Source: Coemansia sp. RSA 487
Taxonomy: Eukaryota; Kickxellomycota; Kickxellomycetes; Kickxellales; Kickxellaceae
DNA: 64,000 bases
Reading direction: 5' to 3'
Assembly: GCA_027577595.1 (NCBI GenBank)
Contig: JANBRJ010000079.1
Coordinates: 18,141 to 82,140 of the forward strand
Part shown: piece by piece, positions 30,117 to 61,321 of the stretch
How the letters are laid out: every line of letters begins with the position of its first letter
How positions within the stretch are numbered: the stretch's first letter is position 1
The notes under the pieces: generated by a model
The model's database searches: none
What the model saw: the letters and a program-made list of their open reading frames with translations, nothing else
What the model was told of the DNA's origin: nothing
Program-made: the position numbers and the translations under genes

Positions 30117-30609
30117 TTGTGAATAACCAAAGAGACCAGTGGCAGATCTGATCATGATTCTGAGAACAGCAAACTGGTTTTGGTTCTGCGATACCCGCTT
30201 CACTTGATTTTGTTTTTCTGATTGCGCGTGACATCATTGTGCTTTCCTTCCAAATATCGTAGATGGCTCCAAAAATCAGTGCCGAACGTTCAAACAAAAA
30301 AGTTGTCTTTGTTTCAGTGCTTGGCTTATTTTGTTGTGTTTCTAGAGAATTTCGTGAACTGTACATTTACTTATTTATTCAATAGCAAGCGCTCAAGCAA
30401 AAGGAAGTCCACATAGAGCTCGACAACGCCACTCTTCTGCACTTGATTATATGAGCCAAGCCAACCAGCACAATAAAACAAATCTATTTATTGGAGAAAA
30501 GAGACCTTCCAATCAATTCGTTTTTGCTGCTTGAATCGAACATATCTTTTGGACACGTGTTGGTTAAAGAGAGATAGAGGGGTGAGCTTGTTTTTTTGCT
30601 TGATTGCAA
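30117..30609. other. Intergenic, HECT-ligase promoter
   Basis: 493 bp between the ABC relic and the HECT gene. No recognisable gene remains. The missing upstream part of the ABC gene is not found here. Confidence 0.45.
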
Positions 30610-33600
30610 ATGGTAGTGTCGCATTTCTTTTCGCCGCTGCGAACATTAAAGAAAAAGACGCGCAAGACGTCAGAATCGTCAGAGTCGTCGTCAGTGGGAG
30701 ACGCAGGGAGCGACGACGACAGCAACAAGGACTCTGGAAATAGACACAAGGATGAAAATAAAAATCCAAAGGATGAAGAGAAGACGCTTGTGGCGGGGCT
30801 GTGCTTCTGCTGCAATCAGAAAGTGATGTACCCGGCGAGCGTGTCGTGCTTCAAGTGCACGGTATGCGACACAATCAACAACTTGCGTGCTGTGGAGCGA
30901 ATAGAGAAGGTTGTTGCCAGCGACGGAAGCGTAACCAGTCGGGTACGTACGCCGCCGCCGCCACTGACACTCGATCGGCTGCGTGCTGGTATCCAAGCGT
31001 ACAAGCGACACCCGGAGAAGCAGGGGCTCCTGGAGGCGATGCTGCGCGAGTCGTTTGGCAACTGGGACGTGCTGAATGTGTCATTCCCAATGACAGCGCA
31101 GACTGGAGACGGACCGGCAGTAGCAATTGATGATGTGCATACAGCGTACAAGCTGATCCTAGCGCTACCGGCGCCGTTTATCCGCGCAATGATGGGTGGC
31201 GTGGAGCAGATCCTGCGCCGACCCGGACGCCCGCTGCGCCAGAAGAGCGACGTCCGGTATCTGCTCATAATCATCGAGAACCCGCTGTTGATGCAGCAGA
31301 GCTTTACGCATGAGGCGTCATACCACCACAGAATCGTCAAGAGCATCGTCGGCACGCTGGCAAACCTGCCGCCGCACGTGCACTACGCGCTGGTTCTGTG
31401 GTCGTCGCAGCATGGTCGCTCGGCGCTGCGCCGCAAGATCGCCCTGGTCAACCAGTTCATCTCGTACCGAGTGCAAAAGTACGACCGCGCCAGACGCCGC
31501 AACCAGGCGAACAGCGCACAAAGAGCTGCCAATAACCAGCTGACTGCATACTCGTCCCAGTCGAACCAGACGGAGCTGCCGGCGTTCCAGCGCACGCGAA
31601 GTGTCACCAATGCGCCCCCACTGCCACCTCACCCGCCGCATGCGCAGGAAATGGGGGCTGCTGGCCTAGTTTTAGCCGCCGATCGGGCCACCAAGCATGC
31701 AAGGATGCGCTCTAACACCGATTCGCGGGTGTCGCTGAGCTCGCGCGAACGAAGCTCCATCCTCACTGAGCACAGCGTGTCTGGGACACAGCGGCGGCCG
31801 CCACCAGCGCCTTCGCGTGCGGCAGGCGCTCATTCCTCCCTGTCGGATGAGTGCAGAGCGGGGCTAGGCATTGCCAACGTTGCGGCACGCCCCGAGGACG
31901 TACATACCCTGTCGACGCAGGACTCGCACCGCCTACACGCCGACATTCTGCGCCATAACCACAGGCATCACCGGCCGCACAACCCCCATGCTCCGGGACA
32001 CACTGCTGCCACACGCGTTGCCACAGCACCTGGGCAGCTGCATGTGCGCACTGCCGTCCAGCACAGCTACAACAGGCCTTCAAGCAGCGTCAGCGACGAC
32101 GATGACGACCACTACGAGGCTGCTTCCAGACGGGCGCCGCCGCTACATATACATGCTGTTGCGCCGTTTAAATCGTCGCCTACACTGAAAGCAACGGCAA
32201 CCCAGCTTCCTCTCCGCCATAGCGACGAAGCAGAGACAAATATGACCGCCTTTGTACCAATTGCTAGTCCTGAAATCGACCCTAGCCACAATGCGCATAT
32301 GCCGCCACCCGTTCCGTCTGCCGGTGGCCACACTGGAAAGAACCACGACGATGCGGTGCGGCCGCCACGCGACTCGGTGCTTGGCGTCCTTGACGGTACT
32401 GCGGAGCCGCGCAGCCCATTTTTGAGCCGTAAAGCAGGGTGCGGATCACTGACTCGCACGCGATCGTCGTCAGAGGCACCGGTGCGGCGGCGAAACAACA
32501 ACGCTTCTGCAGCCACAGCAGCCTCGCCATCCATGATTCATAATATAGCGACGGCACCCGAGCCACCGTCATCACACGCTGTGGGCGACTGGGGCGCCGG
32601 TATCGACCTGGACGACTATTACGTCGGTGCCGACGGCGTATTCTATCCGAAAACCTCGGCGCTGGTAATGTACCAGAATGACTGGCGGCTTGTAGCCGCA
32701 GCCAAAGTCATGGCGCTCCTCCATGCAGCCAACCTTTTGCTTCCCAACAGAGCGCGCCTGTCTGTTGATGCGTTCTACAACAAGGCAATCGAGTCCATGG
32801 ACTTGGTGGCCGACTACGATGCGTGGCAGGCGCGCACACCCGGCGCATTCTCGTTCTGCCAATACCCTTTCTTGCTGAGCCTTGCTGCCAAGGTGCAAAT
32901 CATGCAAGTCGATGCTGCGCGCCAAATGGACTCCAAGCTCAAGGAAGCTGTGATCTCGGCGCTGTTCCAATCGTACCGGTCGCGGATGGCCAGCAACCCT
33001 GCGAATCAGCCGCATCTCAAGCTCCTTGTCCGCCGCCACTGCCTTGTGGAGGACTCGTTGCATCAGCTGGCCACGCATGAGCAGGATCTGAAGAAGCGGC
33101 TGAAGATCGAGTTTGTTGGCGAAGAAGGAATCGATGCTGGAGGCCTGACCAAAGAATGGTTTATGCTACTGGTGCGCGAGCTGCTGAACCCAATGTACGG
33201 CATGTTTACCCGCGAGTCTTACAACGATGATAGTACCGGCAGTTTGAATAGTAATGATTATGACGATGATTCTGCCACTGCGGCATCGTGGTCTGCTGCT
33301 TATTGGTTCAACCCGGCGTCCCTGGAGGCCTCAAACCAGTACTTTCTTGTTGGCGTCGTTGTTGGTTTGGCCCTATATAACTCGAATATCCTTGATCTCC
33401 AGCTACCGTTGGCTGTCTTTAAGAAACTGCTGCGCACATCGTTCTACCAAACACAACATTCGCTTTCTGCTGCTGCTGCTGCCGCTGCTTCTTTCTCGGC
33501 TTCCTCGGTGTCGCCTGTTATGTCTGCTGCTCGATCTGCTAATGCCGTGGCAAAGGGCGGTTCTTCTGCTACTGGCAATGGTGCAACCGCCGATGGTTTG

Positions 33601-34542
33601 GTAAATAGCGGTGCACACAAGCCGCGGTACGTGGTGTCAGCAAGTGGTACCACTAGCAAAGGAGGACTACCAGGAGTGAATGCATCAGCAACAACTACAG
33701 TAGCGACAGTGACATCGGGTGGATCTGGAAATGGCGGCGGAAGTACTGCTGATGGCCGTTCGCCCATCTACGGCCTTTTATCGCCGTCCGCACAACTCCG
33801 GTACCAAATCAACGAGATGCTCTCTGACGTGTCACAGTTCCGGCCACACCTAGCGCGTGGACTGCGTCAACTTCTTCTGTACCGCAACAACGACGTTGAG
33901 GACGTCTTTTGCCTGACATTCGAGGCCTCGTACGATGCGTTTGGACAAGTGATAACGGTTCCTCTGGTTCCCAATGGGGCCAATATTGCAGTTACTAGTC
34001 AAAATAGAGTAGAGTACGTGATGCGGTACCTTCAGTGGGTGCTTAACGACTCGGTGTCCCGGCAGTTTGAGCCATTTCGACGCGGCTTCTACTATGTATG
34101 TGGCGGCAACGCGCTCTCATTGTTCAAACCCGAGGAAATAGAGCTGATGGTGCATGGGTCTGGAAGTGATTGGAATCCGGAGGATCTCAGGGCAATTACC
34201 GAGCATATCAACTTTAGCAATTCTGAAGGGTCTTTACCAGATCACAGCCAGTTACTGAAGGATCAGCTTGTTTGCTGGTTTTGGGAAATTTTGACAGAGT
34301 TCGCCCCAGAGGACCGCCGTATGTTTCTTTCTTTTGTCACTGGTGCAGACCGTATGCCCACCATTGCCAGTTCACCGCGCCTGAAAATGAAGCTGGCTCT
34401 GCTTGGCGACGATTTTAACCGCCTCCCGGTTGCTCGCACGTGCTTTAATCAGCTCGGCATATGGTTGTATAGGAGTAAAGAGGAGCTGAAAGCAAAGCTG
34501 ATGCTTGCAATAAGAGAAAGCGAGGGATTTGGCTTGGAATAA
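30610..34542 (+). CDS. HECT E3 ubiquitin ligase, Hul4/UBE3A-like
   Basis: A 1310-residue ligase starting MVVSHFFSPL at the ATG 30610 (a TTG two codons earlier is not the start). An N-terminal C4-type finger (about 62-90: CFCCNQKV then CFKCTVCDT) precedes a conserved helical block (about 120-290) and a ~350-residue disordered Ser/Pro/His-rich region. The HECT domain runs from about 830 to the end (KIEFVGEEGIDAGGLTKEWF, QYFLVGVVVGLALYNSNILDL, VCGGNALSLFKPEEIELMVHGS, WFWEILTEF) with the catalytic Cys1278 in ARTCFNQLGIWLY (codon 34441-34443) and the terminal GFGLE. An Ala/Ser/Gly-rich ~100-residue insert (33460-33765) and a smaller Asp/Ser insert (33225-33300) interrupt the N-lobe, probably as surface loops. 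Substrates are unknown. Confidence 0.93.
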   Translation: MVVSHFFSPLRTLKKKTRKTSESSESSSVGDAGSDDDSNKDSGNRHKDENKNPKDEEKTLVAGLCFCCNQKVMYPASVSCFKCTVCDTINNLRAVERIEKVVASDGSVTSRVRTPPPPLTLDRLRAGIQAYKRHPEKQGLLEAMLRESFGNWDVLNVSFPMTAQTGDGPAVAIDDVHTAYKLILALPAPFIRAMMGGVEQILRRPGRPLRQKSDVRYLLIIIENPLLMQQSFTHEASYHHRIVKSIVGTLANLPPHVHYALVLWSSQHGRSALRRKIALVNQFISYRVQKYDRARRRNQANSAQRAANNQLTAYSSQSNQTELPAFQRTRSVTNAPPLPPHPPHAQEMGAAGLVLAADRATKHARMRSNTDSRVSLSSRERSSILTEHSVSGTQRRPPPAPSRAAGAHSSLSDECRAGLGIANVAARPEDVHTLSTQDSHRLHADILRHNHRHHRPHNPHAPGHTAATRVATAPGQLHVRTAVQHSYNRPSSSVSDDDDDHYEAASRRAPPLHIHAVAPFKSSPTLKATATQLPLRHSDEAETNMTAFVPIASPEIDPSHNAHMPPPVPSAGGHTGKNHDDAVRPPRDSVLGVLDGTAEPRSPFLSRKAGCGSLTRTRSSSEAPVRRRNNNASAATAASPSMIHNIATAPEPPSSHAVGDWGAGIDLDDYYVGADGVFYPKTSALVMYQNDWRLVAAAKVMALLHAANLLLPNRARLSVDAFYNKAIESMDLVADYDAWQARTPGAFSFCQYPFLLSLAAKVQIMQVDAARQMDSKLKEAVISALFQSYRSRMASNPANQPHLKLLVRRHCLVEDSLHQLATHEQDLKKRLKIEFVGEEGIDAGGLTKEWFMLLVRELLNPMYGMFTRESYNDDSTGSLNSNDYDDDSATAASWSAAYWFNPASLEASNQYFLVGVVVGLALYNSNILDLQLPLAVFKKLLRTSFYQTQHSLSAAAAAAASFSASSVSPVMSAARSANAVAKGGSSATGNGATADGLVNSGAHKPRYVVSASGTTSKGGLPGVNASATTTVATVTSGGSGNGGGSTADGRSPIYGLLSPSAQLRYQINEMLSDVSQFRPHLARGLRQLLLYRNNDVEDVFCLTFEASYDAFGQVITVPLVPNGANIAVTSQNRVEYVMRYLQWVLNDSVSRQFEPFRRGFYYVCGGNALSLFKPEEIELMVHGSGSDWNPEDLRAITEHINFSNSEGSLPDHSQLLKDQLVCWFWEILTEFAPEDRRMFLSFVTGADRMPTIASSPRLKMKLALLGDDFNRLPVARTCFNQLGIWLYRSKEELKAKLMLAIRESEGFGLE

Positions 34543-35799: not shown

Positions 35800-37212
35800 T
35801 TAATAGATATACTTCCAGTACTCGCTTTCCTTCATGGACTTTGCAGCTTCTGAAATCATTACGAATGAGAGTTCGTAACCACCTTTTCCAGGACGTGCAG
35901 GCATTATAACTAACCCATTTTCGCACATAAGAAATGCCGGACGCACCAGAACAGGCGATCCACTGCCAAAATCTGTCTCATAGTACCCGAACCGCGCATG
36001 GTTTGTTGAAGAAAATGAATTGCTTGCTGTTGTTATTTGCATGGCTATATTAATATATCCGCAGGGGCTTTGATTAAACAAGTGCCCCATCTGGTTGCAA
36101 TAGCGTTCGTCTATCCCATCCACAGCTCTTCGGATGTCGCAAGCAACTGTAGCAAGGATCTTTGGGCTGTGGTCTTGCAACAAAAGATCAAGCGGACTGG
36201 CAACAGCTTTCATCAGCACTGCGTTACCTACGTACTTGGCATTAGCAAGTCGCTTTATGCGCGGCCTTATATCGGCAACGATGTTTGAAAGAAACACAGT
36301 TTCACTATTTAATCGCCCGATCTTATGCAATGCCTGAGCAAATAGAACAAAGGCCAGTGCTGAAATCACATCGTTTGCTGATAAATGTGAAATGTCAGAC
36401 TCAGCAAACGGCTGTACTGACTGAGTAAGGCGCTCAAGTGCCGAGCTGGATAAGTGGAAGTGGTAAATGTGGATGTCTGAGAATGACAGCAGGTATCTAA
36501 ATATTCTTCCACGCAGTTCGGGCGAAAACCAGGCCACCCACCTAGAAAAGGCTGTATTCTTGGTAAACATTTGGCACGCCTCTGGCTCCAGCACATCAGT
36601 GCCACTATCTTTGTTAGTTTCAAGGATGGAACGATCGTGTTGAAAGACTTGCGTTGGAATATTGATCTCCAGCATTCTTTGTTGTTCTTGGGCCGCTAGA
36701 ATGTGCTTGGATATATCTGCCCAACGCTTCATAAAGGTGCAATATGCTGTGCCATCAAAGATCGTATGAGATATGCTGGCAAATATGCACATTCCGCTAT
36801 CATCTTTCATACGCAGAACATGAAATTCGGCAAGCCTCATACAATGCCCAATGATACCAGGCGGCGCAGGGGTCTTGCAAGCTGATGAATAGTCAACTGG
36901 CAACAGGCGGACATCGAAATCAGCGTCCTTGAGTGTTTGGAAATGGACGTTACATGAGGAGTCGGTATATACTGGCAGGTTCAAATGGTTTTTGTCTATA
37001 ACGACAAAGCTACGCGAGTCGTTCCCAGTCTTTATACGACCTGCAAGAATTGGGAACTCTTCCAGAGTCCTATACAGAGCAGTCTCGAGAACATCGGATG
37101 GCACAGCTTTCTCGTACCAAAAGTAAAAGGGAATTATTAGAATTGATGGAATATCGTCGTATCCATCCAAATAAACCGTATGCGATTTTACTGAAGCAAG
37201 GAGCCTGTCCAT
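35800..37212 (-). CDS. BAHD-like acyltransferase 1 (transferase family, tandem array)
   Basis: A 470-residue member of the HxxxD acyltransferase superfamily (Pfam Transferase; includes plant BAHD enzymes and fungal trichothecene 3-O-acetyltransferases), which transfer acyl groups from acyl-CoA to alcohols or amines. The catalytic HTIFD motif is at 149-153 (ISHTIFDGTAY) and the structural DFGWG motif appears as DFGSG at 414-418. Both are in the expected places for two-domain BAHD proteins, and length is typical. A TATAAA lies 90 bp upstream (37301-37306). It is the last member of a four-gene same-strand array (35.8-43.1 kb). The substrate is unknown; a secondary-metabolite role is possible, but no synthase gene is nearby. 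Confidence 0.8.
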   Translation of the reverse strand: MDRLLASVKSHTVYLDGYDDIPSILIIPFYFWYEKAVPSDVLETALYRTLEEFPILAGRIKTGNDSRSFVVIDKNHLNLPVYTDSSCNVHFQTLKDADFDVRLLPVDYSSACKTPAPPGIIGHCMRLAEFHVLRMKDDSGMCIFASISHTIFDGTAYCTFMKRWADISKHILAAQEQQRMLEINIPTQVFQHDRSILETNKDSGTDVLEPEACQMFTKNTAFSRWVAWFSPELRGRIFRYLLSFSDIHIYHFHLSSSALERLTQSVQPFAESDISHLSANDVISALAFVLFAQALHKIGRLNSETVFLSNIVADIRPRIKRLANAKYVGNAVLMKAVASPLDLLLQDHSPKILATVACDIRRAVDGIDERYCNQMGHLFNQSPCGYINIAMQITTASNSFSSTNHARFGYYETDFGSGSPVLVRPAFLMCENGLVIMPARPGKGGYELSFVMISEAAKSMKESEYWKYIY

Positions 37213-37300
37213 GATAGAATAAAAATGCTTGAGAATGGGAGAGCACTGAGAGCGAAAAAAAAAAACAGATGTGCGAAGGGTCCAGACAAATAGGCCAGCA

Positions 37301-37306
37301 TTTATA
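37301..37306 (-). promoter_or_regulatory. TATA box of BAHD-like gene 1
   Basis: TATAAA on the minus strand, about 90 bp before the ATG at 37212. Confidence 0.4.
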
Positions 37307-37565
37307 TCTCGTGGACAATAGTGGCGTTCCGCATATGCTAAAATTCAAGCAATAGTGGTTGATTTCTTATAGATCAATTGTAGTTTTTGAATAGCCTTTC
37401 TTGGTTCTACTGATTCCCAAAATCCGTGGCAGCCATAGTTATCTCCGCAAACAATTGCATATAAAATATAAAGCTTTAAACCCAACAGCACAACACGATG
37501 TATGCCAAATGCCAATAAGTATCAAGCTATTATTTTTCAGTGTTGTTAGTTCAGTATATTTGCAC

Positions 37566-37607
37566 GGATTAGGTGAAAGTTTGCAAGGATTAGGTGAAAG
37601 TTTGCAA
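37566..37607 (+). repeat. 21-bp tandem direct repeat, two copies
   Basis: Two adjacent copies of the 21-mer GGATTAGGTGAAAGTTTGCA+A, followed by a partial third (GGATT). It is a minor local duplication. Confidence 0.8.
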
Positions 37608-38142
37608 GGATTGTCACTAAATGATGAGATATTATCAGGATCTGACGCATGCTAAAATCTGGTAATCCGCTGAGTGCACCAGACATTTTAGAGGCTGTGG
37701 TGTGAAACTATCAAAAAGCTACAAGGCCGATTCGACAATGTGCTCAAAAGAGTCAAAGGAAAACACCTTACTAGTATGCAAAATATGATACTCAAAAGTA
37801 GTATGAAGAGCACCATTAACCAAAAATATGGAGTGGGAATGACACAGGAGCTAGAAAATATAAGCAGGCCGCATCCGAGCAACGAATCAAAGAGTCCAGG
37901 CTTAGGAAACTCGGAAAGTCTTTCAAGGAGGAATGTTGCAAACAGAGATATAACTAGAAAGAGCTCCAAATTAGGTTGAGCCCATTTAGGGCAAAAAAAA
38001 CCAAAAAGCATAAACAGAAGAATGAATATAACGTGATGTCACAAGCTGGGTTAACTATATAACTGCTTTCGTATTTAGTATTTCCTTAAAGCTCTTTATA
38101 AGAAAAATGCTGCTTAATTTTGATAACGTCTAAATAAAGTGG

Positions 38143-39555
38143 TTAATAAATATAATTCCAGTATTCACTTTCCTTCATAGACTTTTCCACTTCCGGAACA
38201 GTCGTGAACGCAAGCTCGTAACCACCTTTTCCAGGGTATGCAGGCATAATCACAAAATCATTTTCAAAGACAAGAAACGCTGGACGCACAAGACTAGGCG
38301 ATCCACTTCCAAAATCTATATCATAGTACTTGAATCGCGTATGGTTTGTCGAAGCAAACGAGTTCCTCATGTTTGTTATCTGCAAAACCATGTCGATATA
38401 GCTGCAGGGAAATTTGTTGAATATATGACCCGCCTGGTTGCAATAGCGCTCATCTATTCCATCTACTAGCCTTCGAATGCTGCAAGCAACTGTAGCCAGG
38501 ACCTGTGGGCTGCAGTCCTTCATTATGAGATCAAGCGAGCTAGTAGCCCCGTTTACTAGGAGCACGTTTCCCACGTAATTGGCATTGGCAAGCCGCTTTA
38601 CACGAGGTCGTACGTCAATCATAACGTTTGCAACAAAAATGGTCTCACCATTCAGTCGCCCAGTATTAAAGAACGCCTGTGCAAAAAGAACGGCTGCCAG
38701 TGCTGTGATTACGTCGTTTGATGACAGCCGGGAAATTCCTGGCTCGATGAACGGCTTAACTAACTGGAAAAGACGATTAAATGCTGAGCTGGATAGGTGG
38801 TGGTAGTAGTTTCGAGTGTTTGTAGATGCCAGCAAGTATCTGAATATTCTTCCACGTAGTTCGGGGGAAACCCACGCAATCCACCTAGCAATAGTTGTGC
38901 CTTTGTTAATCACCTCACAGAATTCGGGGTTTAACGCATCGCTGCCATTGTGCATATTGGTCTCCAGAATAGAGCGATCATGCTGAAAATTTTGTGCTGG
39001 AATTTCAATATCTCGTATACCTTGTTGATTCTGAACCTCCAGTACGTACTTGGATATCTCTGCCCAGCGTTTTATAAAGCTATAGTATCCTTTACCGTCA
39101 AATATCATATGGGCGATGCTGGCAAATATGCACATGCCACTATTACCTTTCATACGAAGAACGTGGAACTCGGCCAGCTTCATGCAATGGCCGATGATGC
39201 CATGTGGTGCAGGTGTTTTGCATGCCGATGAATAGTCAACTGGAAGCAACTTTATATCAAAGTCGGCGTCCTTGAGTGTTCGGAAATGGACATTGCACAA
39301 GGAATCGGTATACACTGGCAGGTTCAAATGGTTTTTATCTATAACAACAAAGTTTCGCGAGTCGTTTCCAGTCTTTATATGACCTGCAAGGATCGGAAAC
39401 TCTTCCAGAGTCTTATAGAATGAAGCCTCAAGAACATTTGGCAGTATTGTTTTTTCATACCAAAAGTAGAACGGAATGCTTGATGTGGACGAAATATCAT
39501 CATACGCATCCAGATTAATTATCTGCGGTTCTAATGAAGTGATAAAACTGTCCAT
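38143..39555 (-). CDS. BAHD-like acyltransferase 2
   Basis: 470 residues from ATG 39555 (MDSFITSLEPQ). An in-frame ATG at 39594 would add 13 residues, but all paralogues begin at the MDSF/MDRL position. The catalytic motif is HMIFD (AHMIFDGKGYY) and the DFGSG motif is present. The middle carries the same conserved blocks as copy 1 (NFVVIDKNHLNLPVYTDS, KDADFDIKLLPVDYSSA, LAEFHVLRMK). It is most similar to copy 3, including a 222-bp segment with only three differences. The Met in HMIFD replaces the Thr/Ala of the other copies and should not block catalysis. Confidence 0.8.
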   Translation of the reverse strand: MDSFITSLEPQIINLDAYDDISSTSSIPFYFWYEKTILPNVLEASFYKTLEEFPILAGHIKTGNDSRNFVVIDKNHLNLPVYTDSLCNVHFRTLKDADFDIKLLPVDYSSACKTPAPHGIIGHCMKLAEFHVLRMKGNSGMCIFASIAHMIFDGKGYYSFIKRWAEISKYVLEVQNQQGIRDIEIPAQNFQHDRSILETNMHNGSDALNPEFCEVINKGTTIARWIAWVSPELRGRIFRYLLASTNTRNYYHHLSSSAFNRLFQLVKPFIEPGISRLSSNDVITALAAVLFAQAFFNTGRLNGETIFVANVMIDVRPRVKRLANANYVGNVLLVNGATSSLDLIMKDCSPQVLATVACSIRRLVDGIDERYCNQAGHIFNKFPCSYIDMVLQITNMRNSFASTNHTRFKYYDIDFGSGSPSLVRPAFLVFENDFVIMPAYPGKGGYELAFTTVPEVEKSMKESEYWNYIY

Positions 39556-39798
39556 AATAGAGTATAAACGTTTGAGATTAATGGGGAGTTGCATAAAAAG
39601 ATTGGCGTGTGCGTTCGGAACAATCGCTTATTCTAATATTTTCACCCTCAAAAACAATAATGGCACTACTGCATTGTAGCAACACGTGAGAGACTAATTG
39701 GTTTGCAGTATTTGTTCAGCTCTGAATTGCGTATTGAAAAGTGTTTTGGAAGTGCCTAGAAAAGGAAAATAAAAGCTGGCAATGACCAATGTGGATGA

Positions 39799-41211
39799 CT
39801 AGTAGATATACTTCCAGTACTCGCTTTTCATCATGAACACTGCCACTTCAGGAACCGTGGTGAATGCAAGTTCGTATCCACCTATATCAGGATGCGCAGG
39901 CATTATAGCAAAATCGTTTTCAGCGGTAAGAAATGCCGGACGCACAAGAGCAGGCGTCCCGCTACCAAAATCCGTTTCATAGCAGCCGAATCGCGTATGA
40001 TTTGTACACATGAACTCGTTACTCGCTTTTGTCAATTGTATAGCCAAGTCAACACAGCCGCTGGGGTTTTTGTTGAGCAGGGAGCCCATCTGATTGCAAT
40101 AACGCTCATCTATTCCATCCACGATCCTTCGGATGCTGCATGCAACTGTAGCCAGGACCTGTGGGCTGCAGCCCTTCATTATGAGATCAAGCGAGTTGGT
40201 AGTTCCATTTATCAGCACTGCGTTTCCCATATAGTTAGCATTGGTAAGTCGCTTTACGCGTGGTCTCATATCAATCATGATGTTTGTAAGAAAAACGGTC
40301 TCCCCATTTAGGCGTCCAGCTTTGTGCAACGCCTGGCTGAAAAGAACAGTGGCCAATGCTGTAATCACGTCGTTTGCCGATAGGTGGGAAACACCTGGTT
40401 CGGCAAGTGGCTGGACAAGCTGAACAAGATATTCACACGCCAAGTTGGATAGCCGGACGTAGTAGTTTTGGATATTTGGAGATGACAGCAAGTATTTAAA
40501 TATTCTTCCACGCAATTCGGGCGAGAACCACGCAACCCATCTAGCAATGGCTGTACTTGTATTTAATATGTCACGGATCTCTGGCTCAATCGCATCGCTA
40601 CCATTGTGCTTGCTGGTTTCAAGAATAGAGCGATCATGCTGAAATGATTGCACTGGAATCTCAATATCTCGTATATCTTGTTGATCCTGAGCCGCAAATA
40701 TGCACTTGGATATCTCTGCCCAGCGTTTTATAAAGCTATCGTACCCTGTGCCATCAAAGATTGTGTGAGCTATACTCGCAAAAATACACATTCCGCTATC
40801 GTCCTTCATACGAAGAACGTGGAACTCGGCCAGCTTCATACAACGGCCGATGATGCCATGTGGTGCAGGTGTTTTGCATGCCGATGAATAGTCAACTGGA
40901 AGCAACTTTATATCAAAATCGGCGTCCTTGAGTGTTTGGAAATGGACATTGCACAAGGAATCGGTATACACTGGCAGGTTCAAATGGTTTTTATCTATAA
41001 CAACAAAGTTTCGCGAGTCGTTTCCAGTCTTTATATGACCTGTAAGGATCGGAAACTCTTCCAGAGCCCTATAAAATGAAGCCTCAAGAACATCGAATGG
41101 AACTGTCCGTTCGTACCAAAAATAAAGAGGAATACTTGATGTGGACGAAATATCGTCAAACGCATCCAGATTAATCGTTTGTGGTTTCAATGAAGCGATA
41201 AAACTGTCCAT
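39799..41211 (-). CDS. BAHD-like acyltransferase 3
   Basis: 470 residues from ATG 41211 (MDSFIASLKPQTINL). The catalytic motif is HTIFD (AHTIFDGTGYDS) and the structural motif DFGSG (ETDFGSGTPALVRP) is intact. It is the closest paralogue of copy 2, separated from it by 243 bp. The conserved C terminus ESEYWKYIY/KSEYWKYIY shared across the array ends with an aromatic residue at the same spot in every copy. No signal peptide or membrane helix is seen, so a cytosolic enzyme is expected. Confidence 0.8.
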   Translation of the reverse strand: MDSFIASLKPQTINLDAFDDISSTSSIPLYFWYERTVPFDVLEASFYRALEEFPILTGHIKTGNDSRNFVVIDKNHLNLPVYTDSLCNVHFQTLKDADFDIKLLPVDYSSACKTPAPHGIIGRCMKLAEFHVLRMKDDSGMCIFASIAHTIFDGTGYDSFIKRWAEISKCIFAAQDQQDIRDIEIPVQSFQHDRSILETSKHNGSDAIEPEIRDILNTSTAIARWVAWFSPELRGRIFKYLLSSPNIQNYYVRLSNLACEYLVQLVQPLAEPGVSHLSANDVITALATVLFSQALHKAGRLNGETVFLTNIMIDMRPRVKRLTNANYMGNAVLINGTTNSLDLIMKGCSPQVLATVACSIRRIVDGIDERYCNQMGSLLNKNPSGCVDLAIQLTKASNEFMCTNHTRFGCYETDFGSGTPALVRPAFLTAENDFAIMPAHPDIGGYELAFTTVPEVAVFMMKSEYWKYIY

Positions 41212-41678
41212 GATAGAGTATAAATGTCTGGAATGGAGAAGGAGTTCAGATAAAAGAAGCTGAATTATACCTGCTGATATTTATTTGCTTCAAAGAGTCT
41301 CCGAGGAAAGCAAGATAACAACCATTGGCAATAGACATCCAACAACGCATGTATGCTGCATGCAGCTGCAGATGACAACACGTTTTTGGATACCATGCTT
41401 TTGTATAGTCTAACCATTGGCCACTGAAAGATACCTATCTGAGGACCACACTTGTTTTAATTCCAACAATTCATTTTCCTATATCGAGGTTTAGCGATTA
41501 TATTTCCTCATTTCTTTATTGTAATAAAACAAGTGTATCAGTTACATTGCTAATACATGTGAAACAGTTTTGTTATTAAAAATACGAATATGTTGCTGAA
41601 TTGTTTTTACCCAAAAAAAGACGAGATTTGAAAATGCATAAAGAGGAAATATAGAAAGGTTGGCAATGGCTAAGGTAA
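41212..41678. other. Intergenic between BAHD-like genes 3 and 4
   Basis: 467 bp. The promoter of gene 3 is expected here. Nothing else is recognised. Confidence 0.45.
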
Positions 41679-43088
41679 CTAATAAATACATTTCCAGTAT
41701 TCGCTTTCCATCATCCCCTTTGCCACTTTTGGGCTCATGGTAATTGCAAGCTCGTAACTACCCAACCTAGGACGTCCAGGCATTATAACAACAAAGTTTT
41801 CGGAAGTAAGAAAAGCCGGACGCACAAGAACAGGCAAACCGCTACCAAAATCAGTTTCGTAGTAGCCGAAGCGCGTATGGTTAGTCAACATATACGTGTT
41901 GGGTTTTCTTGCCAACCGACCCACCAGGCTTATGTAGCCGCTGGGATCGCTGTTGACAAAATTCCACATTTGGCTGCAATAGTGTTTGTCCATTCCGTCA
42001 ACGGCCCTTCGGGTATTGCAAGCAACTGCAACCAAGCTGTGAGGGCTGTAGCCTTTCAGCAAGAGATCAAGCGGACTAGTAGCTAGCTTAAGCACTATTG
42101 CGTTTCCAGCATAATTTGCATTGGTGAGTCGCTCTACGCGTGGCCTGATATCGACAGCGATAGTTGCCAAAATTTCAGTCTCGCCACTTAGACTTCCTGC
42201 CTTATGGAAAGCCTGCGCAAAAAGAACAGTGACCAAGGCTGTCAGGACATCGTTTGCTGAAATGTGCGAAATGTCTGGCTCGACTAATGGTTGGATTAAC
42301 CGAAAGAGATGCTCGATTGCCGAACCAGACAGGTGGTAATAGTAGTTGTGAATGTTTAAAGATGCTAAGGCAAGTTTAAGCAATCTTCCACGTAGCTCGG
42401 GCGATATCCACGCGACAAACCTAGAGACGATTGTACTTTTGTACAATTTACGGAATACAGGGTCTATCGCATCGCATTCGCTATGCTCGTCGGTTTCGAG
42501 GATAGAACGATCAAACTGAAAACCCTGAGTTGAAATATCGACGCCATGCATGTCTTGCTTTTCGTGAGCCGTCAGGATGTATCTAGATATCTCTGTCCAG
42601 CGCTTCATAAAGGCACAGTATGATGTTCCATCAAAGATCGCATGGCTGATATTCGCATAAATGCACATGCCGCTGTCATCCTTCATACGAATGATATGAA
42701 ACTCGGCCAGTTTCATACTGTGTCCCGCAACTCCAGGTGGAACACGATTCATGCGCTCCAGAGGATAGTTAACTGGCAGCAGGCTCACATCAAAATTAGC
42801 ATCTTTGAGCGTTTGGAAATGTACGTTGCATGGAGAGTCGGTGTAATCTGGCATATTCAGGCTGCTCTTATCTATCACAACAACATTGCGCGAGTCGCTC
42901 TTAGTTTTCATGCGGTCCGCGAGGATTGGAAACTCCTCTAGAGCTTTGTAAAACGATACTTTGAGAATATTCGACAGTACTGTTTTTTCATACCAGTAGT
43001 AGAATGGAATGGTCAGAACAGATGTAGGATTGTCGATTCCATCCAGATATATTGTCTGAGATTGCACTGAAGCAATAAAGTTGTCCAT
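41679..43088 (-). CDS. BAHD-like acyltransferase 4
   Basis: 469 residues from ATG 43088 (MDNFIASVQSQTIYL). A 66-codon extension upstream in frame has no counterpart in the paralogues and is rejected. HAIFD (ISHAIFDGTSYC) and DFGSG (ETDFGSGLPVLVRP) are intact. This is the most divergent of the four: it has PGVAGHSMKLAEFHIIRM in place of PHGIIGHCMKL and a different linker. It is therefore the likely oldest member, at the upstream end of the array. It is divergent from the TOPORS-like gene. Confidence 0.8.
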   Translation of the reverse strand: MDNFIASVQSQTIYLDGIDNPTSVLTIPFYYWYEKTVLSNILKVSFYKALEEFPILADRMKTKSDSRNVVVIDKSSLNMPDYTDSPCNVHFQTLKDANFDVSLLPVNYPLERMNRVPPGVAGHSMKLAEFHIIRMKDDSGMCIYANISHAIFDGTSYCAFMKRWTEISRYILTAHEKQDMHGVDISTQGFQFDRSILETDEHSECDAIDPVFRKLYKSTIVSRFVAWISPELRGRLLKLALASLNIHNYYYHLSGSAIEHLFRLIQPLVEPDISHISANDVLTALVTVLFAQAFHKAGSLSGETEILATIAVDIRPRVERLTNANYAGNAIVLKLATSPLDLLLKGYSPHSLVAVACNTRRAVDGMDKHYCSQMWNFVNSDPSGYISLVGRLARKPNTYMLTNHTRFGYYETDFGSGLPVLVRPAFLTSENFVVIMPGRPRLGSYELAITMSPKVAKGMMESEYWKCIY

Positions 43089-43850
43089 GATAAAAATATA
43101 AATGCTAGAAAGGAGAAATGGTGTGGTTGCAACATTTTGTCCCAAACGGTTTTCTGGTGTTGTTTGTTGTGAGAATCTACGTTGTGGTAAGATGGTGGAA
43201 TGCGAAGATCCATGCCAAATAGCGCATGCAACATGCATACATTTGCATATGACTACACACTTTTGTTCGTTTTGCAATAAAACCATTTGAGATCATGCTC
43301 TCCTAGAAGGGCATCTAGGAAAGCGTTTGTTGTGGTTTTGTCATTTTATCTTTGTAAATATAGAAACAGCTTTCCTAACAGCAATTAAGAAAAAAGTGAA
43401 CGATGAGTTTGCCTGCATTGAAGCACACATGCCAGCTACCACAGTATTTTCGTATTGAATTTCGAGGACTGAGAAAAGATATCAAGGAAGATCAAGCCAA
43501 TATTTCAAATGACTGCACAACACGAAATCCGCTTGAAACTGCTGTACCAAAATTTTGGCCCAATTATTGCTTGCAGCTTTGTGCATACTAATCTCCAAAG
43601 TGCTCATCATTATTGCTATGGTCTGTTCCTTAAAAAAAAAGTCAAACCAAGCAAACGCTAGCAGAATCATAGCAATTAATTAAATTAAAAGCTGTAAATG
43701 GTCCATCCGCCAGAGCCATTTTCTGGACCTTTCCCAAAACCACAAGTGTATAAATAATTGGTATATTAAGTTAGTATGTCGTTGCCAAAAAAAATACACC
43801 AAGATCAGGTATACCTTGTATGTTGTTTTTTATTTCATTAGTCTTTAATT
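43089..43850. promoter_or_regulatory. Divergent intergenic between BAHD-like gene 4 and RING gene
   Basis: 762 bp. Small frames (for example near 43403-43591) are not protein-like. I see no clear TATA or repeat. Confidence 0.45.
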
Positions 43851-44636
43851 ATGTCTACTGACCAGTCGCAATGTAGCTCGGATACAGATGAACACGCTAT
43901 TAATGGCTGCTCTAGTGATACGACAGAGTACGCGTGCCCTATATGCCTGCAACCAGTGAGCTACAAATGCTACACCAGTCCTTGCTACCATCAGTTTTGC
44001 TTTCCTTGCTTGCTCCAATGGACAGAGCAACGACCGAGTTGTCCACTGTGTAATACAGCTATTACCAGTATTGTCCAGCAAAACCATCAAGACAACAGAA
44101 TCATTAGGACGCCAATATGCAATCCTTTAGAAGAAGAAAGAGACGGATCATGCTCCAGGAATCAAAATCGGCAGCGACGGCAGCGAATGCGCTATGCTAC
44201 TTTTGGTAGAGACCAAACACCTTTAGATTTTGACGAAAATCTGGGCCTGCGTAAGCGTGCAGCAGTGTACAGACATGGGTTAGCACGCGTAGATGATGAG
44301 GAACGACAACTGCGACAACGGACATCACGATCAGTAGCCCTCTTGCGCTCAGCGATTGCCTCCCAGCGATGCCGTCAGTGGATCCATCGAGATCTCCAAG
44401 TGATTCTTAACACTGATGATGTAGAACTAGTGGAAATGCTGGTCATCTCACTGGTGGAGCAATCGAAAGGAGGAATAATGACAATTGACGCAACAAATGA
44501 TCTCCACTGGTCATCAGTGCGTACCTTACTTGGTAATAAACTGCCACAATTTCTTGATGAGCTTTGCGCTTTTGCGGATTCGTCTCTCGATATGCACAGC
44601 TACGACAGATACACCGCTTATAATACACGTATGTAG
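43851..44636 (+). CDS. TOPORS-like RING-finger E3 ligase
   Basis: A 261-residue protein. Residues 29-67 form a C3HC4 RING (Cys29, Cys32, Cys45, His47, Cys50, Cys53, Cys64, Cys67) followed by an Arg/Gln-rich linker. A conserved C-terminal helical block contains RKRAAVYRHGLARV, CRQWIHRDLQVIL and LPQFLDELCAFADSSLDMHSYD. That RING plus VYR block plus WI-R-L helices matches TOPORS, a dual ubiquitin/SUMO E3 in animals with homologues in fungi. The protein stops soon after the homologous helix pair and lacks TOPORS' long SR-rich tail. Nuclear ubiquitin or SUMO ligase activity is the likely role. Confidence 0.75.
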   Translation: MSTDQSQCSSDTDEHAINGCSSDTTEYACPICLQPVSYKCYTSPCYHQFCFPCLLQWTEQRPSCPLCNTAITSIVQQNHQDNRIIRTPICNPLEEERDGSCSRNQNRQRRQRMRYATFGRDQTPLDFDENLGLRKRAAVYRHGLARVDDEERQLRQRTSRSVALLRSAIASQRCRQWIHRDLQVILNTDDVELVEMLVISLVEQSKGGIMTIDATNDLHWSSVRTLLGNKLPQFLDELCAFADSSLDMHSYDRYTAYNTRM

Positions 44637-47080: not shown

Positions 47081-48769
47081 ATGAAATTGCTGGGTATTAA
47101 ACGTCTTTTGGCGGCCGTCACTGCTTTTCAGGCAGCCGTGCTTGCAAAAGATAATACCACAAGCACCAAAGACAACACAGTAACAAAGCGCGATGTCACT
47201 GTCAACGATGTCCTAGACTTTAAGAGCGCACTGCTTCTAATTGATGGAAAAGAAACATCGTGCGAGTCTGCGCTGATAGACAGTGGCGCTGGATTTGTAG
47301 CAGCCAGCTGTCTGAAATTCACAGGTAGCAAGGTCGATATGACGAGAGCCTACGAGCTGGTTATCAAGATGGGCAGAGGCAGCTCACCCACTGTAACCAA
47401 AACAATATCCAGCATTGACGTGCATCCTGAGTATGACTCGGGCACACTTGTCAACAACCTGGCTGTTGTGCAGTTTGGAGATGGGTCGAATATTGAGTGG
47501 CACAACTACATTGGCATTGATCCAAGCGAGTGGAATAATCTATACTTTATTCGCCGATCACTTCAAAACGTTCCCTCACGGACGTGGAGCGATGTCATTG
47601 CTTATTCATCGACGGACACGCCAGACAAGTGTCTGAATGCTTCGACATCCTACGCGGCCAATCCTAAGGACTTTTTGTGCAACTATGCAGCATCTCTTTC
47701 TATCTTTAACCAGGAATGCAAGATTCCCTACGGTACAGTATTTGCGGCGATACAGCCAAGCGACGTGGCTGTTGTTGCTCTCCATTCTCACTCAGCTGTT
47801 TACGGTAACAGCATGTGCTCTCAAGACACAAAGCTGCACTACTATACCTTGCTTCGAAACTATTTGGCCTGGGCTGCAACAACACTTAATCGTGCTATTG
47901 GTGGCTTTGTTCTGGATGCAAGCTACGACTTTTCTCCGGATAGCTCGTATTCCATGAAGAGCGCTTCCAAAAGCAATATCGATGGCGTGGATTTGTTCTA
48001 TGGGGATCAGTATGCCCAAGACCCTATTGACTCTTCTCTTTCTGCAGACATTTACAGAACACCAGCTTCTCAAACTGGCCCGACAAACAGTGGAGGCACG
48101 CCAACACCAACTGATTCAGCAGGCAATGGTAGCAAATCCAGTAGTCCAACCAACGCAGATGGCTCTTCTCATACTAACGACGCTTCGGAAACTGGCAGCT
48201 CTTCCAAGAATAAAAGTTCTTCCAAGAGCGGCAGCGATCATTCGAAGACTGGCAGTGATGCTGCTACTGACAGCAACACGGAGATCGGTGACCTGTCTAA
48301 TGACTCGGAGAACGGCGATACAGAAACCGACTCATTATCGGAAAGCAACAGCGATAGCAGCGACTCTAGCGGTGGATCTGGTGGTGTTTCACCAATTGCC
48401 ATCGTTATCCCAGTTATCATCGTTATTCTTATCATCGGTGGTGCAGGTATTGTTTGGTATGTGCGCAGAAGAAGAAAGAAGAACGAGGAACGGATGAATG
48501 CTCTTAATAATGCCAACAACGAAGATGACGACGACGATATCACACCTATGCACCATCCCAACGAAAGCACTTCGAGCATTATGAACTACTACCAGAGCCA
48601 AGACCCATACAACCCGCACCAGCAGGCTCATCCACAACAGCCGCCGCCAATACCACCGATGCCACCGATGCCACCCCAGCAACATACCATGTCCCAGTAC
48701 ACAACAAACAGCCACATGTTCAACCAACCATATACTGCACGTAGTACTCAGTACGATGGTAACCTTTAA
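47081..48769 (+). CDS. Membrane-anchored trypsin-like pseudoprotease 1
   Basis: 562 residues. Signal peptide (1-22), a possible Kex2 site (KR at 36-37), then a chymotrypsin-fold domain (about 45-280), a Ser/Thr/Gly/Asp-rich stalk (330-434), a TM helix (about 438-461) and a Pro-rich cytoplasmic tail with PPPIPPMPPMPPQQ. Trypsin landmarks align, but the triad is gone: AAHC is AASC (Ser76), NDIA is NNLA (Asn126), and no GDSGGP exists (the region reads CKIPYGTVFAAIQPSDVAV). It is a paralogue of the gene at 59567-61321. I infer a non-catalytic, cell-surface binding or sensor role; the Pro-rich tail could bind SH3/WW proteins. Confidence 0.75.
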   Translation: MKLLGIKRLLAAVTAFQAAVLAKDNTTSTKDNTVTKRDVTVNDVLDFKSALLLIDGKETSCESALIDSGAGFVAASCLKFTGSKVDMTRAYELVIKMGRGSSPTVTKTISSIDVHPEYDSGTLVNNLAVVQFGDGSNIEWHNYIGIDPSEWNNLYFIRRSLQNVPSRTWSDVIAYSSTDTPDKCLNASTSYAANPKDFLCNYAASLSIFNQECKIPYGTVFAAIQPSDVAVVALHSHSAVYGNSMCSQDTKLHYYTLLRNYLAWAATTLNRAIGGFVLDASYDFSPDSSYSMKSASKSNIDGVDLFYGDQYAQDPIDSSLSADIYRTPASQTGPTNSGGTPTPTDSAGNGSKSSSPTNADGSSHTNDASETGSSSKNKSSSKSGSDHSKTGSDAATDSNTEIGDLSNDSENGDTETDSLSESNSDSSDSSGGSGGVSPIAIVIPVIIVILIIGGAGIVWYVRRRRKKNEERMNALNNANNEDDDDDITPMHHPNESTSSIMNYYQSQDPYNPHQQAHPQQPPPIPPMPPMPPQQHTMSQYTTNSHMFNQPYTARSTQYDGNL

Positions 48770-49015: not shown

Positions 49016-50485
49016 ATGGTGTCAGCAAACAGCTGCAGGCATTCCGTACTAGGCGATATACAGCAAAAGCTACTTGGCCAGGTAACATCGACTTTTCTAG
49101 TATCCGATGAGCAGCTTGAAAGAATGGTGCATCAGATGGTTGAGGATCTAAGGGCAGAGGAGCCGAAAAGTAATGGCAGTGAGTACACTACTGCGACGCC
49201 AATTTCCGCTGGCCATCGTATGACCCACGGCACAGCGCTTGGGATGGCAATCGATGCCTCAGGCAAACGCATCCGTATCAGCAGCACCAGCTTTGCCAAT
49301 TTTGATGGTGATAAGCAAATATCGGAAAGCTCAGCAACCCTGGTATTTATTCCACCAGCAAGAGCAAGGGAATCAACAACCAGTTTTTTTGAGTTTGTCG
49401 CATTCTGCATCCGTGAATTTATCCATATACATGGGCTTGTGGATAATAGCAATGTTGGCTCTGGAGATATGCTACCTCCGCTAGGCGTATCCATTGGTCT
49501 TCCAATCAGTACACAGAACTACCAGTCGTTAATCCAGGGACCACTTAGTTGCACAGTTGCCGAAGTGTCCAAGGAGGACTCGCTGGATCTTGGCGATAGA
49601 GATGTAGCTCGCCACCTGCATGACACTGTGCTGCGTAATCATCTCCCGATACGCATTGCCTCGATTACCAACAACGTGGTCAGCTCGCTGATAGCTGCGC
49701 AGTTCAACAACAGCACCACCCGTGTAGCTGCCAGCTTCAACCACGGCATCAATGCCGCATACCTTAAGCGCTGTCCAGACAGCCAGACAAAGCGAATGGC
49801 CGATACCGATCAGAGCCAGCGCGCAGATGACGGATATGTTGCAGTCAACACAGAGATCGGGCGGTTTGGCTCTGCGCCGGCATCGCTTGCAGTGCTGCCA
49901 ATGACAATGTGGGACAACCGCATCGATCGCGAGTCCCGGAACCCGGGCACCCGCAGATTCGAGAAACTTGTGGCCGACCAGTATCTAGGCGAGATTGTAC
50001 GCAACCTCATCACAGATTTTATGGATGAACATCTACTGTTCGCTGCCAACTGCGACGTGTCCAAGATTAACGAAAGCTACTCGTTCCACACTGCGTATAT
50101 GGCACCTATAATGGAGGACATATCAGCTGATCTTGCATCTGTAGGCGATCTGTTTGCCACAGAGTTTGGAATTGCAACAGAACTGGCTGATAGACAGATC
50201 ATCCGCGCTCTGTGTGACTGTGTAGCAGCCAGGGCATCCAAGCTCTCGGGCGCAGCGCTGGCTGCACTAGTTTCTAGGACCAAGCCAGCCAGCTCATGTA
50301 CTGTGGCACTCAGTGGCGTGCTTCTCAACTCCAAGCTGATATATAGAACCACGATGGATACAATGTACAAGCAGCTGAGAAATGCCCGAGATACAAAAGT
50401 ACATATACAGCCGAGACATTCGGATCTTTTGGGAGCAGCGCTGAATGCAGTAAGACTATCTCCCGAATTCCAGCGGAGAAAATAG
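49016..50485 (+). CDS. Hexokinase-like protein 3, near-duplicate of copy 1 in the central region
   Basis: 489 residues, starting MVSANSCRHSVLGDI. From about residue 175 to 340 it is almost identical to hexokinase-like 1 (DVARHLHDTVLRNHLPIRI, FNHGINAAYLKRCPD, NTEIGRFGS, DRESRNPGTRRFEKLV), while the first ~100 and last ~60 residues diverge more. The catalytic Asp is Asn220 and the phosphate loop is DASGKRIRI, the same losses as in copy 1. Both copies keep an intact reading frame. That argues for a selected non-enzymatic function, not for decay. It converges on the Myb-repeat gene, stops 269 bp apart. Confidence 0.8.
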   Translation: MVSANSCRHSVLGDIQQKLLGQVTSTFLVSDEQLERMVHQMVEDLRAEEPKSNGSEYTTATPISAGHRMTHGTALGMAIDASGKRIRISSTSFANFDGDKQISESSATLVFIPPARARESTTSFFEFVAFCIREFIHIHGLVDNSNVGSGDMLPPLGVSIGLPISTQNYQSLIQGPLSCTVAEVSKEDSLDLGDRDVARHLHDTVLRNHLPIRIASITNNVVSSLIAAQFNNSTTRVAASFNHGINAAYLKRCPDSQTKRMADTDQSQRADDGYVAVNTEIGRFGSAPASLAVLPMTMWDNRIDRESRNPGTRRFEKLVADQYLGEIVRNLITDFMDEHLLFAANCDVSKINESYSFHTAYMAPIMEDISADLASVGDLFATEFGIATELADRQIIRALCDCVAARASKLSGAALAALVSRTKPASSCTVALSGVLLNSKLIYRTTMDTMYKQLRNARDTKVHIQPRHSDLLGAALNAVRLSPEFQRRK

Positions 50486-59566: not shown

Positions 59567-61321
59567 TTACGGATGAATTTTATCTTCAAAGTTTGTGGCA
59601 ATGCCCTCAAACTGGTGGTCATCGTAAGATGGTGGGGTGCTTTGTCTAAGATGGCTTTGCCTATGATCTGTCTCTGGCGACGAGTTGACAGCGATTTCGT
59701 CGATAATGCGGATGCGGTCGATGTTGGCGGCCTCGCTCTTTGGATCCCAGCTGAACTTGTTACGGTATCTCCGGTACCACCGGTACAAGAAGAAGAGGCC
59801 AACGAGGATCAAGATGGTTGCGATGGGAACCACTGTGGCTACAATGATGGTTGCGGTACGACCAAGCCCATTGTACCCGCTACCTCCCTTATCTGATGCA
59901 TCGGGGTTGTCGAGCACTGGCTCGCCTACCACACCACTCCCAGCTTCTATGCCGCTGGACGAGTCGCCATAGTCAAAGCTGCCATTTCCGCCGTCGATTA
60001 CAGAGAACCCAGGTGAATCGCCGTTACCGTCTTCCTTGTTGTTCGAGTCACCTGAGTCGGAGCTGCCGTCGCCGGTATCTGTTGCGCTTGCATTGTCCGA
60101 GCTGTTTCCAGTGCTACTCGGTTTGGTGCTGGAACTACTGGAGCCTCCATTACTGCTAGAGCCACTGTTGTTGCTGCCTGTGTCCGTGGACCCAGCGTTG
60201 CCACCAGTGGAAGAGCCTCCGCCAGTGCTGCCGCCTCCAGTGTTGCCGCCTCCAGTGCTGCCGCCTCCAGTGCTTCCACCGTTAGAGCCACCGGTGCTTG
60301 GGGTGGACTGTGATGGCACGGCGGGTGTGGGCGGAGCAGCATTCGTGTTGCTTGCACTACTGGACCCAGTATACGTCTTCTGCGTAGGGTACTGGTCGCC
60401 AGACACAAGTGTCGTGCCCGAAACAGCACCAGCACCACTATTGGATAGCGAGAAGCTGGTGGATCCAGAGTAACTGAACGACGAATCAGCTGCATAGGTG
60501 CTGATAGATGCGCCAAGCATCTTCTGACCCCACGCAACGTACGGCTGGAGCAGCGTGTAGTAGTGGAACTGGTTGCCCGATGAGCCGCACAAGCTGTTTC
60601 CGCCGTAGACGACAGAGTAGCTGTACAGTGCACCAATGGCAATATCGCTGGGCTGGAAGATTGCCCAAGCCGCGCCATAAGGCGTGTTGCATTTGTTGTT
60701 GGCCACCGACGTCGCTGAAGTGCTGAGACAGCGCATTGAAGCCGTGTTGGAGCTATACAGGGCGCTGGCAGCAGTGCACCCAGCTTCATCAGAAGCGCTG
60801 GCGCCGCTTGTTTCGATGATGGCCGGTGTGTTCCACGTGGCCTTGCTGATGCTTGACAGCGTGCGACTCGTGTAATAGACGTTGTCCCAGTCCGCCGGGT
60901 CTTCTCCAATATACTGTTTCCACGAGACCGATGAACCAGTGTTGAACATCAGAAACGCAATGTTGTTAGCAAATGTCGATGGATTGTACTGCGAGTGCAC
61001 ATCCACAGAGTCGACAGAGTAAATCTTGGACGTCCCGCTATTGGGGTCGTTGATGGCTACGCGGTAGTCGATACTATTATCTGCGTTGCCGTCGGATTTG
61101 AACTTCAAGCAACTAGCCGCAACGAATGCAGATATCGAATTGACAAGCGCCATCTCACACGATGTTTGTGTACTGGAAATCACCAGCTGCGCGCTCCGGA
61201 AGTCGTTGAGAAGCTGAGATGCAGTGACATCACGTCGTGTTATGTTGCCTGCGGGTATTGTTAGACCCTTCGCCAAATGCACCAACACACATAGGAGCAG
61301 TGCAAATATTGACTTTAGCAT
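59567..61321 (-). CDS. Membrane-anchored trypsin-like pseudoprotease 2
   Basis: 584 residues and paralogous to the 47081-48769 gene. Signal peptide (1-19), RR processing site (29-30), trypsin-fold domain (about 38-290) with AASC for AAHC (Ser70), NNIA for NDIA (Asn120), and no GDSGGP (CNTPYGAAWAIFQPSDIAI in the matching place). A long Gly/Ser/Asn-rich stalk (310-480) with GGGSTGG-type repeats leads to a TM helix (about 490-515, TIIVATVVPIATILILVGLF) and a basic juxtamembrane segment YRWYRRYRNK. Conserved paired cysteines remain. The triad is lost in both paralogues, so proteolysis is unlikely. Confidence 0.75.
   Translation of the reverse strand: MLKSIFALLLCVLVHLAKGLTIPAGNITRRDVTASQLLNDFRSAQLVISSTQTSCEMALVNSISAFVAASCLKFKSDGNADNSIDYRVAINDPNSGTSKIYSVDSVDVHSQYNPSTFANNIAFLMFNTGSSVSWKQYIGEDPADWDNVYYTSRTLSSISKATWNTPAIIETSGASASDEAGCTAASALYSSNTASMRCLSTSATSVANNKCNTPYGAAWAIFQPSDIAIGALYSYSVVYGGNSLCGSSGNQFHYYTLLQPYVAWGQKMLGASISTYAADSSFSYSGSTSFSLSNSGAGAVSGTTLVSGDQYPTQKTYTGSSSASNTNAAPPTPAVPSQSTPSTGGSNGGSTGGGSTGGGNTGGGSTGGGSSTGGNAGSTDTGSNNSGSSSNGGSSSSSTKPSSTGNSSDNASATDTGDGSSDSGDSNNKEDGNGDSPGFSVIDGGNGSFDYGDSSSGIEAGSGVVGEPVLDNPDASDKGGSGYNGLGRTATIIVATVVPIATILILVGLFFLYRWYRRYRNKFSWDPKSEAANIDRIRIIDEIAVNSSPETDHRQSHLRQSTPPSYDDHQFEGIATNFEDKIHP

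Follow-up and report, generated by a model that had tools for sequence, protein, structure and literature searches.

Two genes in the window, i.e. the whole stretch of 64,000 nucleotides analysed here (C79:18141-82140 of the 17.8 Mb assembly of Coemansia sp. RSA 487), encode membrane-anchored proteins with a trypsin-like fold in which every catalytic position is replaced, and these look like members of an overlooked receptor family rather than enzymes, with dozens of members in the Kickxellaceae, a family of soil fungi. The reading that we favour, at a probability of roughly one in two, is that they are inactive-trypsin receptors, of which the classes with a PY motif (PPxY or LPxY) in the cytosolic tail are sorted via Rsp5 and those with other tails act with other partners.

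Gene 1 and gene 2 are separated by 10.8 kb and share 39% identity across 286 aa. The initial annotation had described them as two paralogues, each with a signal peptide, a KR or RR site, a chymotrypsin-like domain, a Ser/Gly stalk, a transmembrane (TM) helix and a tail, and all of these elements were found in both genes. The signal peptides and TM segments listed below were called from hydropathy and reading by eye; coordinates are those of the window.

47081..48769, + strand: gene 1 (P0001, 562 aa), membrane-anchored S1 pseudoprotease, whole ORF, open and intronless
47081..47146, + strand: gene 1 signal peptide, about residues 1-22, by eye from sequence
47186..47191, + strand: gene 1 KR dibasic (kexin-type) site, residues 36-37
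47222..47884, + strand: gene 1 S1-fold pseudoprotease domain, about residues 48-268, from alignment, profiles and model
47306..47308, + strand: gene 1 H57 position, Ser76, from alignment
47456..47458, + strand: gene 1 D102 position, Asn126, from alignment
47726..47731, + strand: gene 1 D194-S195 positions, Pro216-Tyr217, from alignment
48038..48394, + strand: gene 1 Ser/Gly/Asp-rich stalk, read from sequence
48395..48463, + strand: gene 1 TM segment, residues 439-461, hydropathy 3.09
48464..48766, + strand: gene 1 cytosolic tail with RRRRKK, an acidic run and a Pro-rich, Tyr-containing end, without PY motif
48641..48676, + strand: gene 1 Pro-rich run PPPIPPMPPMPP, residues 521-532
59567..61321, - strand: gene 2 (P0002, 584 aa), membrane-anchored S1 pseudoprotease, whole ORF, open and intronless
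61265..61321, - strand: gene 2 signal peptide, about residues 1-19, by eye from sequence
61232..61237, - strand: gene 2 RR dibasic site, residues 29-30
60524..61210, - strand: gene 2 S1-fold pseudoprotease domain, about residues 38-266, from alignment, profile and model
61112..61114, - strand: gene 2 H57 position, Ser70, from alignment
60962..60964, - strand: gene 2 D102 position, Asn120, from alignment
60677..60682, - strand: gene 2 D194-S195 positions, Pro214-Tyr215, from alignment
59849..60376, - strand: gene 2 long Ser/Gly-rich stalk, read from sequence
59783..59848, - strand: gene 2 TM segment, residues 492-513, hydropathy 2.83
59732..59749, - strand: gene 2 tail motif WDPKSE, with WDPK/WDPKN-E in the gene-2-type tails compared
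59624..59635, - strand: gene 2 PY motif PPSY, residues 563-566, predicted class I WW ligand

Both TM segments are followed by basic residues on their C-terminal side. The kexin-type P-domain has a single match in the genome.

Among the neighbours in the window, four adjacent PF02458 (Transferase family) ORFs lie upstream of gene 1 on the minus strand (35803-43286), and a RING-finger ORF (43851-44633) stands between them and gene 1. Three hexokinase-family ORFs on the plus strand fall at 13720-16984 and 49016-50482, one of them adjoining gene 1 downstream, while a 1312-aa ORF about 12.5 kb upstream of gene 1 (30604-34539, + strand) matched HECT and no other Pfam entry at E<=0.001.

The trypsin-like (S1) fold of both proteins was established from sequence profiles and AlphaFold models with pLDDT of 88 and 89, and the structure prediction that the initial annotation had proposed as a check returned S1 folds of the ordinary kind, in which other residues occupy the triad positions. 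Single-sequence searches gave weak results: the best PDB match of gene 1 had E 0.045, the PDB matches of gene 2 fell mostly on its Gly-Ser linker-like stalk, and PF00089 was not matched by either gene in a single-sequence Pfam search. Chance resemblance to trypsin is nevertheless ruled out by the family profile together with the two models. Gene 1 also matched TMEM154, Plasmodium_Vir and other Pfam entries below their cut-offs, in the stalk, TM segment and tail; these matches were discarded, and an NCBIfam YajC match lying at the TM segment was treated likewise.

Alignment with trypsins of the same genome revealed that H57, D102, D194 and S195 are all replaced in each of the 31 intact in-genome paralogues (33 ORFs less the pieces of two broken copies, L028 and a 225-aa piece on C111), extending to the wider family what the initial annotation had reported of the triad in the two genes. 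Position 57 is occupied by S, N, D, P or A, position 102 by N or P, position 194 by P in 31/31 and position 195 by Y, F or L. A search for relatives with an intact triad, which the initial annotation had recommended, yielded no catalytic letter at any of the four positions in 127 homologues (with gaps in 7 rows at 57 and in 2 at each of the others), a Coemansia-dominated set in which at least one row is identical to an in-genome paralogue (P0052 = L006) and two further rows, P0110 and P0116, are probably from the source strain group. The homologues that have a letter carry N102 in 125/125 and P194 in 124/125, the remaining one having Ser. An active protease was therefore rejected on the paralogues and the homologues alike. 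In active S1A enzymes, D194 pairs with the new N-terminus following activation.

The dead site is itself well kept. Across 158 family rows, the best conserved columns include N102 (151/156) and P194 (155/156) as well as S214 (152/157), H/Y215 (155/157) and Y/F195 (153/156), and position 57 lies outside the top 45. The conservation of S214 is plain retention from trypsin, and that around the cleft may be structural rather than functional. Six cysteines, in gene 1 columns 61 (146/147), 77 (151/151), 184 (155/155), 200 (155/155), 213 (154/156) and 246 (156/156), stand in the alignment at the positions of the trypsin disulfides 42-58, 168-182 and 191-220.

Matches of tblastn on the genome (36 in number) resolved into about 33 loci, a lower bound, distributed over C42 (12), C36 (8), C62 (5), C111 (3), C79 (2, those of the window) and C14, C23 and C121 (1 each). 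Internal stop codons interrupt two of them, L028 and C111:18595-19311, and 31 have intact ORFs; L015 has a tail of 8 aa and L030 and L032 have no TM segment within frame, so introns or truncation are possible in these three. Named homologues come from Coemansia, Kickxella, Martensiomyces, Dipsacomyces and Linderina, five genera that are all Kickxellaceae, and since the searches reach relatives with shared short words and scored the candidates sharing most of them, restriction to Kickxellaceae cannot be claimed. Genes of type 1 and type 2, terms that denote rows from the homologue searches with gene 1 and gene 2 rather than tree-based orthologues, have consecutive locus tags in RSA 988, RSA 1365, the LPJ76 record and C. 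erecta IWW50.

The pseudoproteases form one side of a branch supported at 100/100 that separates them from other S1 genes in both trees built, one with 15 and the second with 19 of these. Pairwise dN/dS was 0.14-0.33 in 15 of 16 selected paralogue pairs and dS was saturated in the remaining pair, ratios that are rough because several dS values exceed 1; gene-wide positive selection was not seen in these pairs. The conserved dead site and the purifying selection indicate that these are not decaying proteases, and taken together with the 100/100 branch they point to an old, functional, non-catalytic lineage. Within this lineage, a scan of 10 selected paralogue pairs detected mosaics. In L020 and L021, seven successive 30-residue blocks of the ectodomain are 100% identical in protein and DNA, with 17-79% protein identity beyond, and L013 and L027 have ectodomains that are 24-63% identical together with an identical 90-residue stalk stretch, the identity continuing by eye through the TM segment, which suggests gene conversion or module exchange.

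A PF00089 search of the genome gave 39 matches, a figure that includes some family members and second pieces of single genes, and among the matches listed 20 other distinct trypsin-like genes were examined, with L050/L051 counted as one gene and the triads of L042, L048 and L049 read by eye. H57, D102 and S195 are kept in 16 of the 20, altered in three and cut off in one. L055 (C165:14263-14982, - strand) has H57Y and S195W with D102 and D194 kept, and a TM segment and tail are present; it probably represents an independent loss, because it stands on the trypsin side of the tree. L067 (C130:25366-26070, + strand) keeps a RIVGG start and reads PASC, DNIA and GDG where trypsins have their usual motifs, with a hydrophobic C-terminus without tail, and its long branch among the trypsins makes its placement unsure. 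The 345-aa ORF of L047 (C37:137818-138456, - strand) reads GDAG at the active serine (S195A) with H57 and D102 kept. L055 and L067 were discarded as ancestral intermediates since the tree groups both with the trypsins, as it does the L047 ORF. On C14:46278-49260, L066, a trypsin with triad letters, lies head to head with the pseudoprotease L015 at a distance of about 1.1 kb.

The tails had been characterised by the initial annotation as Pro-rich or basic, a description that misses a regular PY motif, PPSY in the case of gene 2. Among the tails of 28 of the 33 in-genome rows, PPxY occurs in 19 and PPxY or LPxY in 22, against means of 0.8 (maximum 5) and 1.4 (maximum 7), respectively, in 2000 rounds of shuffling. 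The density of PPxY is 19 per 2122 tail residues, whereas the luminal parts give 1 per 12327 residues, the trypsin ORF set gives none in 6581 and the window ORFs of >=300 aa give 1 in 13067, namely the motif of gene 2 itself. Counts of [PL]PxY in the same four sets are 22 in tails, 2 in luminal parts, 2 in trypsin ORFs and 5 in window ORFs, LPxY alone being commoner by chance, as the 5 [PL]PxY against 1 PPxY of the window ORFs attest.

Grouping of complete tails by search list and best BLAST match, which is not a tree, placed the PY motif in 23/24 gene-2-type tails (the exception is a record marked partial) and in 0/21 gene-1-type tails, gene 1 included. For the other 69 complete tails, assigned by nearest in-genome paralogue, the motif is found in 8/8 of the L003 group, 14/19 of L023 and 3/32 of L006, and in the smaller groups L005 (2/4), L004 (2/2), L008 (2/2), L007 (1/1) and L001 (1/1). 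The WDPK motif is likewise kept in gene-2-type tails. Because the motif follows group lines, PY and non-PY classes can be distinguished, gene 1 being non-PY. Motifs of the form PPXY or LPXY are recognised by Rsp5 WW domains, and in yeast several membrane proteins bearing them are Rsp5 adaptors, according to the available part of PMC2810449; the feature of TM adaptors, a cytosolic PPxY/LPxY beside a TM segment, is present in gene 2 and absent from gene 1. On its minus strand, contig C51 shows matches to C2, to three WW domains and to HECT, arranged in that order, which is the Rsp5/Nedd4 layout. It is on the recognition of these motifs by Rsp5 and on this layout that the PY-class members are proposed as Rsp5-sorted receptors.

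The proposed mechanism is as follows. Members would be type I single-pass proteins of the plasma membrane or endosome, in which the inactive trypsin domain, kept off the membrane by the Ser/Gly-rich stalk, could act as the module that binds a protein or peptide outside the cell or in a lumen. Contact would probably be made at the former substrate cleft, rebuilt with N102, P194, Tyr/Phe195 and the [YH]-S-[HY]-[ST] stretch at about 213-216, and the cytosolic tail would connect binding with the cell interior. Gene 2 and most in-genome paralogues belong to the PY classes, in which PPxY/LPxY may recruit an Rsp5/Nedd4-type ligase by its WW domains; receptor and ligand would then be ubiquitinated and enter endocytic sorting. 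The tails of the non-PY classes (gene 1 and the L006 type), which are basic, Pro- or Tyr-rich, would bind other partners, and the Pro-rich run of gene 1 could meet a Pro-reading domain. The receptor-type use of a protease fold that the initial annotation had envisaged is thus supported by the sequence test, and the receptor function itself is what we infer from the architecture and the PY motif.

The arrangement of parts also recalls wall sensors like Wsc1/Mid2, and it is possible, if rather unlikely, that the dead trypsin head touches the wall and the tail signals mechanical stress, with the Ser-rich stalk as a spring between them. A disulfide-bonded head, a long Ser-rich stalk, a single TM segment and a short tail do match that layout (Wsc1, as outlined in the available part of PMC7915640), and the WSC domain was not matched in this genome by a search that also matched no control genome. 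A head that merely touches the wall would hardly need about 33 loci and a conserved former active site, however, and the PY motif points toward sorting. We consider it less probable again that the family supplies decoys or scaffolds for the fungus's own secreted proteases, its dead domains binding the inhibitors, substrates or partners of active trypsins. The stock of PF00089 matches, the triad letters in most of the trypsin-like genes examined and the trypsin beside L015 would fit such a role, and inactive S1 effectors are known in the GIPs (excerpted text of PMC3091767); on the other hand, the cleft is rebuilt (P194, Tyr/Phe195, His/Tyr215), so that canonical inhibitors would be expected to fit poorly, and nothing connects the tails with such a role. 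That the genes are decaying, functionless duplicates of trypsin genes could draw on the stop codons inside two of the loci and is highly improbable in view of the 31 intact ORFs, the purifying selection, the identical replacements across genera and the conserved, group-specific tails.

As putative inactive-trypsin receptors, the proteins may be compared with several known systems. With peptidase S1A they have the fold, the six cysteines, N101 and S214 in common, and they differ in the replacement of H57, D102, D194 and S195 and in the addition of a C-terminal TM segment and tail. Type II transmembrane serine proteases have an N-terminal TM segment and an active enzyme; the membrane-anchored S1 domain is common to both, whereas the Coemansia family has its TM segment at the C-terminus and the triad is absent.

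Inactive S1 proteins are shared with the insect serine protease homologues, of which the honey bee has 13, three possibly membrane-associated (PMC1761132, in the part available), whereas the Coemansia family is a fungal clade with a stalk, a C-terminal TM segment and often PY tails. The GIPs of Phytophthora, a filamentous microbe, are likewise trypsin-like proteins without catalytic activity, although they are effectors that a plant pathogen secretes into the apoplast (same part of PMC3091767) and the Coemansia family is membrane-anchored; Kickxellales are described as mostly saprotrophic in the excerpted text of PMC10386755. The yeast Rsp5 adaptors Bsd2, Tre1/2, Ear1 and Ssh4 are likewise membrane proteins using PPXY/LPXY, and Ear1/Ssh4 have SPRY domains (PMC2810449, as above), while the present family has a trypsin-fold ectodomain and predicted Rsp5 binding, with gene 1 lacking the motif; SPRY was matched by neither gene 1 nor gene 2 up to E 5. 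Wsc1/Mid2 share the head, the Ser/Thr-rich stalk, the single TM segment and the tail (PMC7915640, as above) and differ in the WSC domain, for which neither gene gave a match up to E 5, and in the number of loci. Many PnmB-like S1 genes are reported in Zoopagomycota, with 21 hits in Linderina, and the available part of that paper does not discuss inactive membrane-anchored ones (PMC8683493). Pseudoproteases and stalked single-TM sensors are each already known. The literature searched, mostly non-subscription, yielded no trypsin family that has many genes, a C-terminal anchor, PY tails and a dead site throughout, in line with the initial annotation's statement that this use of the fold had not, as far as was known, been described as a standard fungal surface family.

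Some members of the family are labelled in databases as 'Serine protease 56' (P0048), 'serine-type endopeptidase activity protein' (P0057) or 'Peptidase S1 domain-containing', although none of the four positions was seen to carry a catalytic residue, and protease counts in such fungi may be inflated as a result. A census of early-diverging fungi, which does not name Coemansia in its text, dropped proteins with altered catalytic residues (PMC8778642), and a procedure of that kind would hide dead-trypsin proteins. The PY motif makes part of the proposed mechanism testable in yeast. If the reading is true, an enzyme fold has been turned wholesale into a receptor-like fungal family whose dead site is conserved and which occupies about 33 loci of a 17.8 Mb genome. 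We further put forward, as a tentative and somewhat doubtful extension, that the Kickxellaceae possess a receptor repertoire with the dead trypsin as recognition unit, in which paralogues in tandem clusters swap ectodomain and stalk/tail modules, as in the mosaic pairs L020/L021 and L013/L027, such exchange pairing different recognition heads with different PY or non-PY tails. Were this the case, the repertoire would serve uptake or the recognition of self, prey or competitors.
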